Notes under the pieces: model-generated
Seen by the model: only the letters and a program-made list of their open reading frames with translations
Told to the model about the DNA's origin: nothing
Database searches by the model: none
Shown: one piece after another, positions 1 through 14,923 of the stretch
How positions within the stretch are numbered: position 1 is the first letter of the stretch
Layout of the letters: each line of letters opens with the position of its first letter
Assembly (NCBI GenBank): GCA_950097245.1
Contig: CATNCS010000003.1
Coordinates: 1-64,000 of the forward strand
DNA from: an uncultured Oscillospiraceae bacterium
GTDB lineage: Bacteria; Bacillota; Clostridia; Oscillospirales; Oscillospiraceae
DNA length: 64,000 nt
Direction: 5' to 3'
Program-made: the position numbers and the translations under genes

Positions 1-1412
1 TAAGTCTCCCTGCCTATATGCGTGATTGGCTGCTGAAAAAGTTTGAGCACGATGAGCGCGAATTCGATAAAGATGATCTATCCAGATTCGTCAAAAAATT
101 CATTCCAAGAAAAGATGACTGGAATACAATAAAGAATGATATTATTATCGAAGGGAAAACGGTGAAATTTCTTGCCAAAATATCTGTAAATATTGACATT
201 AAAACTAGTGAAGTATCTTTTTCCCTACCGGACTTTGGATTGGGGTTTAAAGATACTATTATCGAAAATGATGTGTGGGATTTATGCAAGGATGACCTTA
301 TAAAGGGAAGAGAAATATGGGGGATGGTGGGGCTTGGATATCGATCTCCGGACGATTTTGATTTCACCTTTGAATATGAAAGAAAATCCTCTAAAGCAAA
401 GAATTCAAAGGATGGAAAAATTAAACTTGTTTCCTTCAAAAATTTTTGTCCCTATGAGATTGATCTTGAGGTCTACAAAGAGGCCCGCAAAGAATTCACT
501 ACAAATGAATGGATTGATATTATCCTTGGCGCTGTGGACTACAATGCCGCAGGATATGAAACCGAAGAAGAAAAGCTCACTATGCTTACCAGACTACTTC
601 CATTTGTGGAAAAGCGTTTGAATCTGATTGAGCTGGCACCTAAAGGTACCGGTAAGTCTTATCTTTTTGGAAATGTCAGTCGATATGGTTGGCTTTCCAG
701 TGGTGGAGTCATGAGCCGTGCCAAGATGTTTTACGATCAGACAAAGCGCAGAGAGGGCTTAATCGCTGGAAGTGATTTTGTCACGCTGGATGAAGTACAG
801 ACAATTTCCTTTACCGATACGGATGAGATGCGGGCTGCTTTGAAAGGTTATCTGGAACAAGGCAACTTTACCGTGGGCGATTATAAAGGAACAGCCGATG
901 CAGGCATGATCCTCTGTGGTAATATCCGTAAAGAGATCATGGATGCAGATGGCTATGAAAACATGTTTACCGAGTTGCCTGCTGTTTTCCATGAGTCTGC
1001 ATTAATTGAAAGATTTCACGGATTTATTAAGGGATGGAATATCCCACGTATGAAAGATGATTTGAAAGTAAATGGATGGGCGCTTAATTCGGAGTACTTT
1101 TGTTCAATTATGCATGAGCTACGTGATGATATGACCTACAGGAGTATTGTAGATGAATATATCGTCGTTCCCGAAAGAGCTGACACACGTGATACCGAGG
1201 CCGTAAAGCGAATAGCTACAGCATATCTAAAGCTACTTTTCCCAAATGTTCAACATATGGAAGATATTACGCCAAGAGAATTTAAAAGATACTGCTTTGA
1301 CCGCGCTCGAAGAATGCGAGATACAATTAAATACCAACTTGGCTTGCTTGATATGGAGTATGCAGGAAAGGATTTGCCGCCATTCAAAATTTGTGGCATA
1401 GACTTAGAGTAA
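1..1412 (+). CDS. brxL: BrxL-like (TIGR02688-like) AAA+ ATPase of BREX systems, 5' end outside window
   Basis: Frame is open to base 3 upstream of the listed ATG (…SLPAYMRDWLLKKF…, resembling the BrxL N-terminus); Walker A-like LAPKGTGKSYLFG, DFVTLDEVQT Walker B-like, GNI sensor; ends …YAGKDLPPFKICGIDLE. Confidence 0.82.
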   Translation, partial: SLPAYMRDWLLKKFEHDEREFDKDDLSRFVKKFIPRKDDWNTIKNDIIIEGKTVKFLAKISVNIDIKTSEVSFSLPDFGLGFKDTIIENDVWDLCKDDLIKGREIWGMVGLGYRSPDDFDFTFEYERKSSKAKNSKDGKIKLVSFKNFCPYEIDLEVYKEARKEFTTNEWIDIILGAVDYNAAGYETEEEKLTMLTRLLPFVEKRLNLIELAPKGTGKSYLFGNVSRYGWLSSGGVMSRAKMFYDQTKRREGLIAGSDFVTLDEVQTISFTDTDEMRAALKGYLEQGNFTVGDYKGTADAGMILCGNIRKEIMDADGYENMFTELPAVFHESALIERFHGFIKGWNIPRMKDDLKVNGWALNSEYFCSIMHELRDDMTYRSIVDEYIVVPERADTRDTEAVKRIATAYLKLLFPNVQHMEDITPREFKRYCFDRARRMRDTIKYQLGLLDMEYAGKDLPPFKICGIDLE

Positions 1413-1413
1413 C

Positions 1414-1614
1414 ATGGAAATAAAAAAATGTTATGTATGTGGAAAAGCTCCACTAACAAAAGACGAAATAGGCCTGACCAAAAAGATAATCAACAAAAAA
1501 GCTACAACTTTTTATTGTTTGCCTTGTCTGGCGGAGTACCTTGAAGTTACTGAAGAGGAACTGCTTGCTAAAATTGAGGATTTCAAGAACGAGGGTTGTA
1601 CGCTATTCAAATGA
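1414..1614 (+). CDS. small double-CxxC (zinc-ribbon-like) protein, 66 aa
   Basis: CYVC…CLPC motif pair, starts 1 nt after brxL stop and ends 11 nt before the desulfurase; operonic spacing. Confidence 0.7.
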   Translation: MEIKKCYVCGKAPLTKDEIGLTKKIINKKATTFYCLPCLAEYLEVTEEELLAKIEDFKNEGCTLFK

Positions 1615-1625
1615 GGTGTTAGCTG

Positions 1626-2750
1626 ATGAAACCGCATATCTACGCCGATAATGCGGCAACGACAAAGCTGGATAAGGTTGTGTTTGAGGTAATGACACCT
1701 TGGCTTCTCGAGGAATATGGAAATGCTTCACAGCCCTATGCGTTTGCCCGTAAACCGAAAAGAGCTCTTGCAGATGCAAAAGTCATAATTGCAGAATGCA
1801 TAGGCGCCGAACCAGAGGAAATTTACTTTACCTCTGGTGGAACTGAGAGTGATAACTGGGTTATCAAAAGCTCTGCTTTTTCTGATCCGGAGAAAAGGGC
1901 AACGATAACTTCGGCTTTTGAACATCACGCAATTCTTCACTCCTGTGCGGCAATTGAGCGACTGGGATATCCAGTTGCCTACATGCTCCCTTCGAATGAG
2001 GGCTATATTACTTCAGAAATCCTGAAGAAGTATATAACCAATAGCACACGACTCGTTTCAGTTATATTTGCTAATAACGAGATTGGCAGTATCCAGCCTG
2101 TTCAAGAGCTGTGTGAAGTAGCCCATACTCATGGTGCGCTGTTCCATACAGACGCAGTTCAGGCCGTTGGACATATTAAAATCAATGTTCATGAGTTGGG
2201 AGTAGATTTTCTTTCGGCTTCCGCGCACAAGTTTAATGGCCCTAAAGGTATCGGATTCCTTTATATCCGTAAGGGTGTGGAATTGCCACCTTACGCAGAT
2301 GGCGGCGCACAAGAAGATGCGCATCGGGCAGGTACGGAGAATGTGGCAGGAATCGTTGGTATGGCAGCGGCATTAAAAGGAAACTGCGATTTACTGGAGA
2401 GGAATCAGCAGTACATTCTAGATTTAGAAAGATTGCTTATACTTCAGCTTGATAAAGCTGGCATTGCCTATAAACGCAATGGTGGAAATTGCATGTTACC
2501 GGGTCTGTTAAGTCTATCGTTTTTAGGAAAGAGTGGAGAAGCTATTCTTCACCGCATGGATCTTATGGGTATCAGCATTTCAACAGGCTCCGCCTGTGAC
2601 AGTGTAAATACAGAGATTTCTCATGTCCTGAAGGCCATCCAGCTTGATGAGGATTATGCCACAGGTACAATTCGTATTTCACTAGGAAAGAATAATACAG
2701 AAGAAGATGCTAAGATAATTGCAGCATCTCTGATAAAAATAGTAGCATGA
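1626..2750 (+). CDS. cysteine desulfurase, NifS/IscS/DndA-like
   Basis: YADNAATTKLD start, SAHKFNGPKG PLP-lysine motif, GTENVAG, STGSACDS catalytic-Cys loop. Confidence 0.93.
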   Translation: MKPHIYADNAATTKLDKVVFEVMTPWLLEEYGNASQPYAFARKPKRALADAKVIIAECIGAEPEEIYFTSGGTESDNWVIKSSAFSDPEKRATITSAFEHHAILHSCAAIERLGYPVAYMLPSNEGYITSEILKKYITNSTRLVSVIFANNEIGSIQPVQELCEVAHTHGALFHTDAVQAVGHIKINVHELGVDFLSASAHKFNGPKGIGFLYIRKGVELPPYADGGAQEDAHRAGTENVAGIVGMAAALKGNCDLLERNQQYILDLERLLILQLDKAGIAYKRNGGNCMLPGLLSLSFLGKSGEAILHRMDLMGISISTGSACDSVNTEISHVLKAIQLDEDYATGTIRISLGKNNTEEDAKIIAASLIKIVA

Positions 2751-3022
2751 AGTGTAGTATCAGGCCTAAATGCTATCTGGTAAATAATTTGCAACCCTTG
2801 TGCGGCAATGAATTTATACGAAAATGATGTCTTGTGGGAAACTGCTATATAAAAAGTCGTTTCGTTTGGAATAAGTCTGCATGAAGCTTAGTCAAAGTGT
2901 TTCATTCCAACCTTTATATTTCTCTGCCATCATCATATATTTCACTCGACTTTTGCTCCTTCATTCGGTATTGTGTTGGTTGCAAAGAGCACCAAAAAAT
3001 ACTGAATGCAGGAGGAAAAAGT

Positions 3023-3793
3023 ATGACCAGCATGAAAAAGCGCATTGCCGCCACACTGACGGCGACCATCCTTGCAACCGCACTCACCGTTCCCGCTGCG
3101 GCGGAGGCTCCGGCCATCCGGGTAAGCAGCTACAAAGGCAGCACCCTGGAGGTGGGAGATAGAAGTGGCCTGATCATCGGCCCCAGCGTCACGGACTACT
3201 CCGTCACCTCCAGCGCCCCGGACACAGTGGCGGTGGAGCAGGTGCTGACCTTCTGGGTTGCCGTCGCCAAGGCGGAGGGGAGTGCGGAGATCACCGCCTC
3301 CAACAGCGCGGGAGAGTCCGGAGCCGTAATGCTGACAGTCGGCCCCGCTATTCCTGCCACACCGGAAGTCCCCGCCAGCGGGAACAGCGTCAGCCTAACG
3401 GACAACCTTGAGATACGCCAGGAGATGATCCACTTGATTAACCAGACCCGCAAAGCCAATGGGGTCTCGGAGTTGCCGGTCAACGAGGCCCTGATGAACG
3501 CCGCCCAGGTTTGCTCTGACCGGCGCTACACCTGGCATCACACTCCGGAAGAAAGCAAGGCCGCTGCAGACGCCGGTTACCCCTATGGCTTCGGTGATAA
3601 CCTCACTGTGTTCACCGGCACAGCCGATGCCGCCCAACGCGCCGTCGACAACTGGATCAACTCCCCAGGTCACTTCCAGACGATGATCGATCCACGTTGC
3701 GACTGCATCGGGGTAGGCGTGACCCAGTACGACGGGATCACATACTGCTACATGTTTGTCGGAATACCCAACAGCGTCAATTTCTATGCGTAA
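3023..3793 (+). CDS. secreted CAP/SCP-like domain protein
   Basis: GGAGG RBS before ATG 3023 (internal to ORF 2897..3793); signal peptide MKKRIAATLTATILATALTVPAAAEA; C-terminal CAP-type region (HLINQTRKANGVSEL…WINSPGHFQTMIDPRCDCIGVGV). Confidence 0.85.
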   Translation: MTSMKKRIAATLTATILATALTVPAAAEAPAIRVSSYKGSTLEVGDRSGLIIGPSVTDYSVTSSAPDTVAVEQVLTFWVAVAKAEGSAEITASNSAGESGAVMLTVGPAIPATPEVPASGNSVSLTDNLEIRQEMIHLINQTRKANGVSELPVNEALMNAAQVCSDRRYTWHHTPEESKAAADAGYPYGFGDNLTVFTGTADAAQRAVDNWINSPGHFQTMIDPRCDCIGVGVTQYDGITYCYMFVGIPNSVNFYA

Positions 3794-3901
3794 CAAGGCA
3801 GCGAACTGAAAGTGCAGACCCAAAATCAAGAGCAGGCCGAAAACGGTCTGCTCCTGGCTTTCAGATCCTGCGTCTCCATATTCAAAGAATAACCGATCCG
3901 C

Positions 3902-4948
3902 TCAAAAGGCGGCAAATCGTTTCCGCATTTCCTCGTCCGACAGTTTTCCCTGCTCCGCCAGATCCAGCACCTCCTGAACCTGGGACATGGCAGCGTTCCA
4001 CTCATCCCTGCTGATCTTACCTCTCTGCTTTCTCGCCTTCAGGCGGTTATAGACCTTCCGATACTCCACACCTGCCGGACTCAGACCCGTGGGATGATTC
4101 GCCTTTCTGTGAGCGCCGACCTTGCGGCAGGTGCGCTCCGTCTCGCCGGGCGCGACATTATTGCAGTAGCAGGTGTTGTACGCGGCGGTCAGCAAGAAAA
4201 AGCGTCCGCAGTTGTGGCAGCGGCGGGGTGCGTTGCCCACCATCAGACCCCGGTAGAAATCGGTGTAGAGAAAGTGGGAGAGGTAACGGAACTCCACTTT
4301 CTCTGCCAGAAGGACTTTTCCTGTCTCGGCAGGGTCTACCGTCGGGACAAAGCAAAGCTGAGTGGGAAAGCTCTGACTGAATTCCTGCTCCGGGAAAAAC
4401 AGTTCCCCCGCGGCTGCCATGTCGGTAAAGTAAGCGGCGTAAGCTCCTGCGTATGCCTCATCACTGCGACGGGAGAGCGGCTCCAAATAGAGCTCCAGCA
4501 TCCCGTCCAACTGTCCCCGGAGGTTCCGCAGGCTCTCTGCAAAGTATTCCAGTCCAGAGAGAAAATCCTCAAACATCCGGTGACCCTCGGAGTCAACGTC
4601 CAGAACCTCCGACCACTTCGTCCGGTCGGACAGCAGGTCAGGAAACAAGCTCCGGGCCGCCTCTGTGTCCAGGCGCAGACTCCGGTAGACCGGCAAATCA
4701 AAAACCAGATCCCAGACAGCGTTGAGCCGTTCCTGCGCGGAACGGGCGGCGCTGTCTGTTTTTTCCTGGAGCAGTGTCCACACAGCGGACATGAAGTGAT
4801 CAACACGCCGGTCGATCTCCGTTAGTATCTCGCCGTCCAGGTTCAGAACATCCGTTGTGAGCTGACCCAGCGGAAAAGCCGCTCCGTCCAGAAATACAGT
4901 GCCTCCGGTAAAGAAAACCGAGAACCGGTCAAAGGTGTTCTCCGCCAT
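3902..4948 (-). CDS. DUF6076-like domain protein with C-terminal Cys-rich motif
   Basis: Likely start MAENTFDRF at 4948 with GGAGGGAG RBS; CHNCGRFFLLTAAYNTCYCN…CR motif. Confidence 0.65.
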   Translation of the reverse strand: MAENTFDRFSVFFTGGTVFLDGAAFPLGQLTTDVLNLDGEILTEIDRRVDHFMSAVWTLLQEKTDSAARSAQERLNAVWDLVFDLPVYRSLRLDTEAARSLFPDLLSDRTKWSEVLDVDSEGHRMFEDFLSGLEYFAESLRNLRGQLDGMLELYLEPLSRRSDEAYAGAYAAYFTDMAAAGELFFPEQEFSQSFPTQLCFVPTVDPAETGKVLLAEKVEFRYLSHFLYTDFYRGLMVGNAPRRCHNCGRFFLLTAAYNTCYCNNVAPGETERTCRKVGAHRKANHPTGLSPAGVEYRKVYNRLKARKQRGKISRDEWNAAMSQVQEVLDLAEQGKLSDEEMRKRFAAF

Positions 4949-5088
4949 GCCGCTCCCTCCTGTATCCGATAGACTTTTGGCGTTTCCCCATCCTGGGCCA
5001 AATCTATTGTACGACCACTGATTTTGTGTTACCTTCATCATATCAGAGCAACAAGCAGAAGTCAATCAGGTATAAAGGAGGATGTAAC

Positions 5089-5298
5089 ATGAAAGAGTCG
5101 GTCTACAAAACCTATGACGAGCTGCCGCTGTTCCTGAACGCGGAGACAGTGGCAAGGGTGCTGGGCGTCTCGCCGTCCAGTGGGTACGAGTTGATGCATG
5201 AGCAAGGGTTTCCCTCTCTGCGCATTGGCAGCCGTATCGTGATCCCCAAGGAGGCGTTCATCTGTTGGGTGGAAGAACACACAGGAGGTACGGCGTGA
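5089..5298 (+). CDS. excisionase / AlpA-like helix-turn-helix protein
   Basis: AAAGGAGG RBS; …FLNAETVARVLGVSPSSGYELMHEQGFPSLRIGSRIVIPKEAFICWVEEH. Confidence 0.8.
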   Translation: MKESVYKTYDELPLFLNAETVARVLGVSPSSGYELMHEQGFPSLRIGSRIVIPKEAFICWVEEHTGGTA

Positions 5299-5870
5299 AG
5301 AAATACGATCTCTATTCCAAGCGCGACCCGGCCAAGAATTTTTCTCCTCTGCCCAATGAGGTGTTCTACCTGGGGCTGTCCTACGGCGCCATTGCGGTCT
5401 ACGGTTACCTGATGCACATCGAGGACAGGAAAACCTTCCAGTCCTACGCCAGCTACAACACCATCGGCAGAGCGGTGAAGATGAGCGCTAACACCGTGCG
5501 AAAGTATGTGCTGGAGCTGGAGGACAAACACCTCATCCGCACAGAGCCCACCACCGTCGTCACCCGAGACGGACGCAAGCGCAACGGAACACTGCGCTAC
5601 TACATCCGTCCCATTCAGGAGGCAGTGGATTACTACCACGAGCGGCAGCTCAGTCAGCTGGAGCTGGATACCGAGCGGCAGGGAGCCCAGGCCCGATTGT
5701 CGCGGCTGTGTGCGGCGCAGGAGCCGCTCCCGGCGGCAGGGCGGCCCATGACACCCCCAGCAGCAGAACGCGGCGTGTCGGGGCTGTGCGGCCCGGTGTG
5801 CGGAACGGGTGACCTCAGCGATTTTCAAAACGGTCCGGTGAACCGGGGGGTCGAAAAAAGTGCAGGATAA
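5295..5870 (+). CDS. helix-turn-helix / replication-initiator-like protein of mobile elements
   Basis: GTG start at 5295 overlapping previous stop (GTGA); VKKYDLYSKRDPAKNFSPLPNEVFYLGLSYGAIAVYGYLM…SANTVRKYVLELEDKHLI winged-HTH pattern. Confidence 0.65.
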   Translation: MKKYDLYSKRDPAKNFSPLPNEVFYLGLSYGAIAVYGYLMHIEDRKTFQSYASYNTIGRAVKMSANTVRKYVLELEDKHLIRTEPTTVVTRDGRKRNGTLRYYIRPIQEAVDYYHERQLSQLELDTERQGAQARLSRLCAAQEPLPAAGRPMTPPAAERGVSGLCGPVCGTGDLSDFQNGPVNRGVEKSAG

Positions 5871-6892: not shown

Positions 6893-8053
6893 ATGGCAAA
6901 GCGCAGACCGTCCGGCGACGGCATGGTGCGCAAACGGGAGGACGGACGCTGGGAGGGCCGCATCGTGGTGGGCCACAAGGAGAACGGCGAGTCCATCTTC
7001 CGCTACGTCTCCGCCAAAAGTCAGAAGGCCCTGATGAAAAAGCTGCACCAGAGCATCCAGGAGTACCGGGATGTGGACCTGAGCGAGGATAGCCGGATGC
7101 CGCTGGGAGAGTGGCTGGACCGCTGGCTGGAGGAGTACGTCTCGCCCGTGGTGCGTGAGTCCACACTGAAGGGTTACCGGCAGTACATCGAGTGCTACAT
7201 CAAGCCCCGGCTGGGGGACAGACCGGTGTGCAAGGTGACTGCCGCTGACGTGCAGGCCTTGTACCGGGAGGTGCAAAAGAACGGGCGCAAGACCGAGCAT
7301 CCCGAGTACGGGTACGCGCTCTCCGGCTCTACCGTCCGCAGTCTCCACGGTGTGCTCCACCAGGCCATGGACGCGGCGGTGCGGGAGCGGCTCACGGCGA
7401 GAAATCCCACAGAGGGCGTTACGCTTCCCAAAAAGAAAGCCTCCGCCAAGCAGATTCTCAACGACGAGCAACTGGAGCGGTTCATGGAGGAGATCAAAAA
7501 GGACCCGGTCTGGCACGACTTCTTCTACACTGAGCTGACCACTGGGATGCGCCGGGGTGAGATCTGCGGTCTGATGTGGTCCGACTTCGACGGGAAGAAG
7601 GGGACGCTGACAGTGCGCCGGACGCTCCACCAGCGCAAGGGCGGCGGGCTGACCACCGGTGAGACCAAGACGGGAAAGGGCCGGCGCACCATCACCCTGC
7701 CACCCAGCACGGCCCAACTGCTGCGGGAACGGAGGAGAGGCTCCTGCTCCCAGTGGATCTTCCCCAATCCCCTCCGCCCGGAGGACCCGGTCAATCCCGG
7801 CAGGGCCTACAGCCGCCTGAAGACTCTGCTGAAAAGTGCAGGCCTGCCCGGCATCCGCTTCCATGACCTGCGTCACACCTTCGCCACCCATGCCCTGACC
7901 AGCGGCGTAGACGCCAAGACGCTGTCCGGCATCCTGGGGCACACCAAGGCGTCCTTCACCCTGGACACCTACACCCACGTCACCGGAGATATGCACCGCC
8001 GGGCGGCGGAGATTGTTGGCGGCTTTCTGGACGACATCATGGTGAGGGGGTGA
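6893..8053 (+). CDS. tyrosine recombinase / site-specific integrase
   Basis: Arm-binding N-term (RKREDGRWEGRIVVG), catalytic TTGMRRGEICGLMWSD, RFHDLRHTFATHAL, LGHTKASFTLDTYTHV. Confidence 0.95.
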   Translation: MAKRRPSGDGMVRKREDGRWEGRIVVGHKENGESIFRYVSAKSQKALMKKLHQSIQEYRDVDLSEDSRMPLGEWLDRWLEEYVSPVVRESTLKGYRQYIECYIKPRLGDRPVCKVTAADVQALYREVQKNGRKTEHPEYGYALSGSTVRSLHGVLHQAMDAAVRERLTARNPTEGVTLPKKKASAKQILNDEQLERFMEEIKKDPVWHDFFYTELTTGMRRGEICGLMWSDFDGKKGTLTVRRTLHQRKGGGLTTGETKTGKGRRTITLPPSTAQLLRERRRGSCSQWIFPNPLRPEDPVNPGRAYSRLKTLLKSAGLPGIRFHDLRHTFATHALTSGVDAKTLSGILGHTKASFTLDTYTHVTGDMHRRAAEIVGGFLDDIMVRG

Positions 8054-8057
8054 GGGT

Positions 8058-9491
8058 ATAGCGAGGAAACGGAAGAAGGGCGAGGGAACGCTCCGTCAGA
8101 GAAAGGACGGCCGCTGGGAGGGCCGGGTGGTCGTTGGCTACGATGACAGCGGCAATCCCAAGACGAAAAATGTGCTGGCCAAGAGCAAAAAGGAGTGCGC
8201 CGAGAAGCTGGAACAGCTGAAAGCGGCCCAGGGCAGCTCCGGGCCGGTGAAGGTCAGGTCGGAAATGCGGTTCGGGGACTGGCTGGACTTTTGGTATCAG
8301 AACTGCTCCAAGCCAGCTCTGCGGCACACCACCCAGCTGAATTATGAGAACTGGATCTACCTCCACGCCATTCCGGGCGTGGGGGACGTCCCTCTGAACA
8401 AGCTGTCCCAGTCCGACCTCCAGCAGTTTTTCACCGAGATGAAAAAGGGCGGGCGGCTCAACAACGTGGAGCGCCACGGCGCGGGGATGGCGGACCGCTC
8501 GGTGCGCAGCTGTCACGCGGTGTGTCAGATGGCGCTGGACCGGGCGGTGAAGGAGGGGCTCATCCGAATCAACCCGGCCATCGGCTGTAAGCTGCCGCCC
8601 CTGCGGGAGAAAGAGATGAAGATTCTGAGCCGGGAGGAGATCCAGCGGTTCCTGATCCAAGCCAAGGCGGAGGGGATGTACGAGCTGTTCCTCCTGGAGC
8701 TGACCACCGGGATGCGCCGGGGAGAGCTGCTGGCCCTCCAATGGTCTGACCTGGACTTCAAGAGCGGCAGACTGTGTATCAGCAGACAGGTGTACTCCGT
8801 CAACGGCAAGCTGGAGATCAACGAGCCCAAGACTAAAGCCGCCGTCCGCACCGTTATCCTGCCGCCCGCCATGGTGGAACTGCTGGCAGAGTACAAGTCG
8901 CAGATTTTCTCGGAGTGGATATTCCCCTCCCGCGTCAAGCCGGAGCAGCCTGTAGACCCTGGCTATGTCCGCAAGCGTCTGCAAGTCATTCTTGAGCGGG
9001 CAGGGTGCAAAAAGGTGAGGTTTCACGACCTCCGTCACACCTTCGCCACCATGTCCCTGGAGAACGGTATGGACGTGAAGACGTTGTCCGCTATCATCGG
9101 CCACGTCTCATCGGCCACCACGCTGAACATCTACACCCACGTCACCGATGAGATGCAGAGAAACGCGGCCCGGAACATCGACCAGGGCATCGCTGGGGCG
9201 GAGGTGGAGGAAGAACCGGAACATGAGGAATCTGCCCCGCCTGTGACCTTCACGCCATACCGTCCCCCGCATCGCAGACCAGGGACAGGGTGCGTCAGCC
9301 AGATCAACGACCACCTGTTTGAGGGCCGCTACTCGCCCAAGTGGATCGACGGCAAAAAGCACGCTCGCAACATCTACGCCCACACCCGTGAGGAGTGTGA
9401 GGAAAAGCTGGCGGCTCTGATTGTTCAGATGAAACGGGAGCTGGCGGAGCTGAAAGCGGCACAGGCGGCAGGGGCACCCTCCAGACATTGA
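8058..9491 (+). CDS. second tyrosine recombinase with C-terminal duplicate of the arm-binding-like segment
   Basis: TTGMRRGELLALQWSD, RFHDLRHTFATMSL, IGHVSSATTLNIYTHV; conserved N-term KRKKGEGTLRQRKDGRWEGR is encoded upstream of the listed GTG 8127, in frame from an ATA at 8058. Confidence 0.88.
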   Translation: MARKRKKGEGTLRQRKDGRWEGRVVVGYDDSGNPKTKNVLAKSKKECAEKLEQLKAAQGSSGPVKVRSEMRFGDWLDFWYQNCSKPALRHTTQLNYENWIYLHAIPGVGDVPLNKLSQSDLQQFFTEMKKGGRLNNVERHGAGMADRSVRSCHAVCQMALDRAVKEGLIRINPAIGCKLPPLREKEMKILSREEIQRFLIQAKAEGMYELFLLELTTGMRRGELLALQWSDLDFKSGRLCISRQVYSVNGKLEINEPKTKAAVRTVILPPAMVELLAEYKSQIFSEWIFPSRVKPEQPVDPGYVRKRLQVILERAGCKKVRFHDLRHTFATMSLENGMDVKTLSAIIGHVSSATTLNIYTHVTDEMQRNAARNIDQGIAGAEVEEEPEHEESAPPVTFTPYRPPHRRPGTGCVSQINDHLFEGRYSPKWIDGKKHARNIYAHTREECEEKLAALIVQMKRELAELKAAQAAGAPSRH

Positions 9492-13762: not shown

Positions 13763-14923
13763 GTGGACAACCTGTTTCACTACTTAGACAACGCCGCCAC
13801 CACACCGGTGCGGCCCGAGGCCGCCCAGGCGGCGGCTGAGGCCATGACCCGGGGCTGGGGCAACCCCTCCTCTCAGTACGCTCTGGGCAGGCAGGCGGCC
13901 GGCCAGGTGAAGGGCTGGCGGGAGGACATTGCCAAGGCCCTGGGCTGCGGGCCGGAGGAGGTCTATTTTACCTCCTGCGGCTCGGAGAGCGACAATTGGG
14001 CCATCTTCGGGGCCCTGGAGCTGAACCGGCGGAGGGGAAAGCATATCGTCACCACCGCCATTGAGCACGCCGCCGTGCTGGAGCCGATGAGGTCCCTGGA
14101 GCGGCAGGGGTATGAGGTCACTTACCTCCAGCCCGACCACCAGGGCCGCATCTCCCCCGCCCAGGTATCCGCCGCCCTCCGGCCGGACACCGTACTGGTA
14201 TCTGTGATGCTGGTAAACAACGAGCTAGGGACGGTCCTGCCTGTAAAAGAGACCGCCCAGGCCATCAAAAAGGCGGGCTGTCCCGCCCTGCTCCACTGCG
14301 ACGGGGTCCAGGGCTTTTTAAAGGTGCCCTTCACCCCAAAAGCGCTGGGGGTGGACCTGCTGTCCGTCAGCGGCCACAAGATCCACGCCCCCAAGGGGGT
14401 TGGGGCGCTGTATATCCGGAAGGAACTGGTGGACTCCAAGCGTTTTCCCCCCCTCATCCGGGGCGGGGGCCAGGAGAGCGGCCTGCGTTCCGGGACGGAG
14501 GCCACCGCGCAGATCGCCGCCTTCGCTGCCGCCGCCCGGCTGGGGGCGGCCTCCATGGAGAAGGACATCGCCCATATGTCCGCCCTGAAGGCCTGCGCTG
14601 TCGACCGGCTGGCCCAAGAGCTCCCGGAGGCGGTGGTCCTGGTTCCTGACGGCGCCCCCCACATCCTGCCCATCTCCCTGCCCGGCTATAAGAGCGAGGT
14701 GGTGGTCCGGTTTTTAAGCGACCGGGGGGTCTATCTCTCCTCCGGCTCCGCCTGCCACAGGGGAAAGCCCAGCCACGTCTTCGGGGCCCTCAAGCTGCCC
14801 AAACCGGTGCTGGACGGCGCCCTGCGGATCAGTTTTTCCTGCGACACCACCCGTGAGGATGTGGACGCGCTGGTAGAGGGGTTGAAAGGGGCTAAAGAGG
14901 CGCTGTTTACCACGCTGTCGTAG
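13763..14923 (+). CDS. cysteine desulfurase family protein
   Basis: YLDNAATTPVRPEA, SGHKIHAPKGVG, SSGSACHRG; AGGAG RBS, GTG start; TAG stop lies in the adjacent repeat. Confidence 0.93.
   Translation: MDNLFHYLDNAATTPVRPEAAQAAAEAMTRGWGNPSSQYALGRQAAGQVKGWREDIAKALGCGPEEVYFTSCGSESDNWAIFGALELNRRRGKHIVTTAIEHAAVLEPMRSLERQGYEVTYLQPDHQGRISPAQVSAALRPDTVLVSVMLVNNELGTVLPVKETAQAIKKAGCPALLHCDGVQGFLKVPFTPKALGVDLLSVSGHKIHAPKGVGALYIRKELVDSKRFPPLIRGGGQESGLRSGTEATAQIAAFAAAARLGAASMEKDIAHMSALKACAVDRLAQELPEAVVLVPDGAPHILPISLPGYKSEVVVRFLSDRGVYLSSGSACHRGKPSHVFGALKLPKPVLDGALRISFSCDTTREDVDALVEGLKGAKEALFTTLS

Follow-up and report, generated by a model that had tools for sequence, protein, structure and literature searches.

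The 3' half of a probable type 4 BREX operon, with a five-cysteine mini-protein and a cysteine desulfurase, at a contig end in an uncultured Oscillospiraceae bacterium

The window, by which we mean the whole 64,000-nucleotide stretch of DNA that was analysed, begins with brxL, a gene for a small CxxC protein and a cysteine desulfurase gene, all within positions 1-2750 and on the plus strand. Base 1 of the window is also base 1 of its contig, C3, which breaks off within brxL. As the window starts where the contig starts, brxL is without its ~30 first residues and there is no upstream DNA to read. The features of the three genes are as follows:

3..1412, plus strand: brxL, short type 4 form, comprising an N-terminal DNA-binding region and an MCM-type AAA+ ATPase without a Lon domain (PF13337, PF20442, TIGR02688, PDLC02505)
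636..659, plus strand: Walker A motif of BrxL, APKGTGKS (read from the sequence; columns conserved in 14 homologues)
1414..1614, plus strand: CxxC mini-protein of 66 aa, CxxC-x25-CxxC with a C-terminal GCxLF (48-member alignment; structure model)
1597..1599, plus strand: codon of C62, the invariant fifth cysteine of the CxxC protein (alignment, sequence)
1626..2750, plus strand: NifS/DndA-like PLP cysteine desulfurase of 374 aa (PF00266, PADLOC DndA/SspA, desulfurase tree)
2229..2231, plus strand: codon of the PLP-lysine of the desulfurase, K202 (invariant column)
2595..2597, plus strand: codon of the catalytic cysteine of the desulfurase, C324, in the STGSACDS loop (invariant column)

An earlier note on this DNA had placed the brxL stop at 1412, the start of the CxxC gene at 1414 and that of the desulfurase at 1626 on a single strand, and these coordinates are exact. 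It had also described the three genes as low in GC; their GC content is 41.4%, compared to 61.4% for positions 3001-64000 of the window.

BrxL was matched by both Pfam BrxL domains, BrxL_ATPase PF13337 (E 4.6e-114) and PF20442. It scored 388 bits against NCBIfam TIGR02688, above the cut-off of 329, and 696 bits against PADLOC PDLC02505, where the match begins at model position 31. The C-terminus of the protein coincides with the end of the PDLC02505 model and carries no extension, as in the short form of BrxL. By comparison, the BrxL of the Acinetobacter type 1 BREX system (PDB 8EMC) is a protein of 679 aa. The window BrxL aligns to only its first ~465 residues (E 3e-74) and thus does not have the C-terminal Lon-like part. 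Type 4 BrxL proteins are described as being without C-terminal extensions (PMC12839542).

A total of 494 relatives were found by scanning GTDB genomes with a BrxL profile, and the best 80 were kept and read. Among these, BrxP, BrxC and PglZ were detected upstream of brxL by home-built profiles in 61, 62 and 63, respectively, of the 64 loci with enough upstream sequence. The gene order in the relatives is BrxP (a PAPS reductase), BrxC, PglZ (type 4), BrxL, CxxC protein and desulfurase. Locus L043, whose BrxL is 93% identical to that of the window, has the complete operon. Its upstream proteins scored 807 (BrxP), 1636 (BrxC) and 638 bits (PglZ) in PADLOC, and its PglZ scored 541 bits against the NCBIfam BREX-4 PglZ model, for which the cut-off is 140. 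These neighbourhoods agree with the proposal of the earlier note that the window holds the 3' end of a type 4-like BREX locus. A cultured strain, Lachnotalea glycerini DSM 28816 (L064), also has an intact operon. The further proposal of the note, a sulfur donor dedicated to type 4 BREX, is borne out by the downstream side of the brxL neighbourhoods, where the note had suggested a survey for the CxxC and desulfurase pair. In 54 of the 73 relatives with enough downstream sequence brxL is followed by both genes in the same order as in the window; the CxxC gene stands alone in 17, neither is present in 2, and the desulfurase alone in none. A recurrence of this extent means that the ordered trio is not due to chance.

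The window resembles type 4 BREX (brxPCZL; PMC12839542) in its short Lon-less BrxL, in the gene order of its relatives and in the desulfurase and small cysteine-rich protein that follow brxL. Only the last three genes are in the window, due to the contig end, and no other difference was seen. The 2026 description presents type 4 BREX as a phosphorothioation-based system with a desulfurase and a small zinc finger, and reports the desulfurase in 56% of taxa (PMC12839542); brxPCZL is also listed among the gene sets that produce phosphorothioates (PMC11931770). The earlier note had regarded the desulfurase and its CxxC partner as lying outside the canonical BREX gene list known to it; the pair had already been described. 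The arrangement is thus a published one, and the locus is a new, truncated example of a described type. What the raw sequence confirms is that a type 4 BREX operon can carry its own sulfur donor.

The desulfurase matched Pfam Aminotran_5 PF00266 with an E-value of 5.4e-73, and its K202 and C324 are invariant across 15 sequences, as expected of the class V aminotransferase fold. The closest NCBIfam models were NifS (TIGR03402; 410 bits, cut-off 530.75) and DndA (TIGR03235; 311.7 bits, cut-off 480), and the protein reached neither equivalog cut-off. The protein is predicted to be DndA-like in its working, though outside the DndA equivalog. Its relationship to the desulfurases of the Dnd (DndABCDE) and Ssp (SspABCD) systems is reflected in PADLOC scores of 399 bits for DndA and 397 bits for SspA, and the BrxP and BrxC proteins of the window's relatives weakly match SspD/DndC and SspC. 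The window desulfurase differs in being linked to BrxL and PglZ rather than to DndD/DndE or SspB/SspE. In a tree it nests among desulfurases from other BREX-4 loci. The branches mix hosts from many phyla, some of them represented by MAGs whose names may be wrong, and this pattern is compatible with horizontal transfer. A second, more distant cysteine desulfurase (35% identical) is encoded at 13763-14923 of the window and is probably a housekeeping enzyme. Host desulfurases are present elsewhere in the genome, so the linked desulfurase may not be essential.

To the right of the trio lies a host-like flank with an integration module, which also includes a DUF6076 gene:

3023..3793, plus strand: CAP-domain secreted protein, the first gene of the host-like flank and not part of BREX (PF00188, E 8.5e-15)
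5026..5298, plus strand: excisionase-like protein, assigned to the adjacent integrative element (TIGR01764, 25.2 bits, slightly below the cut-off of 28.8)
6893..8053, plus strand: tyrosine integrase of the neighbouring element (PF00589, E 4.4e-26)
8127..9491, plus strand: second tyrosine integrase (PF00589, E 3e-29)

GC content rises from 41% to about 59% near position ~3000, within 3 kb of the contig end, as it would if the trio were foreign to this genome and had been joined to it artificially by chimaeric assembly or contamination. We consider such an artefact highly improbable: parts of the same flanking module also border the BREX trio in L041 and L067, which come from other assemblies, and a flank of this kind is usual in the genus, where the CAP-domain gene is multicopy and the same slot holds other defence genes. 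In two congeneric loci, L175 (G610:C10) and L176 (G617:C35), the position before the CAP gene and module is taken not by BREX but by a GmrSD-type gene and an SF1-type helicase gene (Pfam tests of these slot genes were run on the G617 copies). L176 also has the type I restriction genes HsdR/HsdM/HsdS further out, and an 805-aa frame at 3187-5604 that reads as an ADP-ribosylglycohydrolase domain with a type I HsdM methylase after it. Since other restriction and defence genes fill this slot in G610 and G617, BREX sits in a variable defence slot. An integrative element carries the BREX operon as cargo, and for this organism the locus amounts to ordinary mobile defence cargo.

The assembly from which the window comes is 95.6% complete in 108 contigs. 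A search of it for the PAPS reductase family, with controls positive in all 14 genomes, found no member, and the BREX-4 PglZ model (NF033445) found no match in it. BrxC was also not found in this assembly, nor did a DNA search of the genome with the L043 upstream genes return anything; both of these searches were without a positive control. The negative results obtained in this genome with PF08665 (PglZ) and PF13182 (DUF4007) carry no weight and were discarded, because the type 4 PglZ and BrxP of L043 are invisible to those models. The missing PAPS reductase and PglZ might be taken to suggest that all the organism retains of a type 4 BREX operon is its 3' tail, a decayed remnant that would leave no sulfur mark. 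A similar state is seen in the close relative L041 (BrxL 92% identical), which lacks brxP and the beginning of brxC. The abutting DNA (1-4650) resembles another mobile element, with a PAPS-reductase-domain gene on the opposite strand; the gap in L041 may reflect decay or may itself be a misassembly. We judge a remnant improbable, since the contig ends inside brxL and the absence of the upstream genes is expected from that break alone. Moreover, the three frames of the trio are intact with their active-site residues conserved, and the upstream genes are present in L042, L043, L058 and further close relatives. Together, these results make it very probable that the contig holds the 3' half of a BREX operon of type 4, the phosphorothioation type, with the order BrxP-BrxC-PglZ-BrxL-CxxC-desulfurase, that this operon is carried as cargo beside integration genes, and that its 5' half was lost at the assembly break.

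The phosphorothioate chemistry of type 4 BREX is credited in this literature to an experimental paper by Yuan et al. from 2024. In the type 4 operon proposed here, the desulfurase would draw sulfur from cysteine via PLP bound to K202 and keep it as a persulfide on C324, as the chemistry of the family and the presence of both residues suggest. According to the published type 4 model, the sulfur would then move to BrxP, a PAPS-reductase-fold enzyme, for insertion into the DNA backbone, at sites that BrxC and the DNA-binding portion of BrxP may help to select. Unmarked phage DNA would be the target of PglZ and of BrxL, a ring helicase that has no Lon domain. In operons without their own desulfurase, a housekeeping desulfurase presumably stands in.

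The two accessory genes were also counted in a set of 91 loci, made up of the relatives, a wider sampling of the window's phylum, viral contigs and one plasmid from an archaeon. A single-sequence BrxL search of the viral contigs returned no close relative of the window BrxL, and a CxxC-based search of them found BREX-4 operons. The CxxC protein is the more constant extra part, being present in 84 of the 91 loci compared to 62 for the desulfurase, which never occurs without it. On the BrxL tree the desulfurase requires at least 19 state changes and the CxxC protein 5; informative pairs were too few for a sign test of whether the two co-evolve. The possibility that the CxxC protein is a mere desulfurase partner was rejected because 17 of the 73 loci above carry it without a desulfurase. 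Its constancy makes this cysteine-rich mini-protein a concrete target for the study of phosphorothioation.

In an alignment of 48 members, C35, C38, G61, C62 and F65 of the CxxC protein are invariant and C6 and C9 are conserved in at least 90%. Its structure is predicted as three helices with a mean pLDDT of 93. No Pfam family scored above cut-off for the protein, Foldseek of the model against the PDB gave no match below E 1, and the best hit when a profile was run against PDB sequences had E 0.62. The gene mostly lies 3' of brxL; in L037 it is found between brxP and brxC, and in L145 between pglZ and brxL. On viral contigs of 115-124 kb, the CxxC/GCxLF domain forms the C-terminus of a PAPS-reductase protein (L148, 1022-2290; L149, 6882-8177; L163, 6001-7266). 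The fusion was confirmed by Pfam in L148; in L163 the fused domain has degenerated, and one of its CxxC motifs reads CKKH. Structure prediction for the phage fusion (three sequences) gave a mean pLDDT of 45, hence no docking was inferred from it.

The fusions argue for a link between the CxxC domain and BrxP-like enzymes. Taken with the co-occurrence data, they point to a small metal-binding adaptor as the most likely role of the CxxC protein, one associated with BrxP and the BREX core and not with the desulfurase alone. A DNA-binding regulator of the operon, outside the sulfur and modification machinery, is possible, though we lean against it. The protein has been compared to HTH-type regulators (PMC12839542), and it shows sub-threshold Pfam similarity to AsnC/NirDL-type HTH domains and a weak Foldseek resemblance, none at E <1, to those of AsnC and MntR. 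However, its gene is internal to the operon rather than at the operon start, viral contigs encode the domain as a fusion with PAPS reductases, and an HTH does not require the invariant C-terminal cysteine. A further reading, which we put forward as rather unlikely, is that the five-cysteine protein is a previously unnamed domain serving PAPS-reductase-fold enzymes; it might, for example, bind metal as a scaffold and use its fifth cysteine to relay or guard the persulfide on its way to BrxP, a pairing that phages would encode as one fused protein.

Homologues of the CxxC protein also directly adjoin GH27 alpha-galactosidase genes in four genomes (L150, 9381-9620; L151, 7446-7688; L152, 9919-10122; L153, 9637-9840), two of them Pfam-confirmed, and these copies retain the C-terminal cysteine in a GC.LF or NC.LF motif. 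This neighbourhood concerns carbohydrates and shows no evident connection to sulfur or defence, so the CxxC protein need not be exclusively sulfur-related. The same CxxC domain also ends a 600-aa protein of unknown family on a further viral contig (L147, 6354-8156), whose gene follows one judged by eye to be ParB-like.
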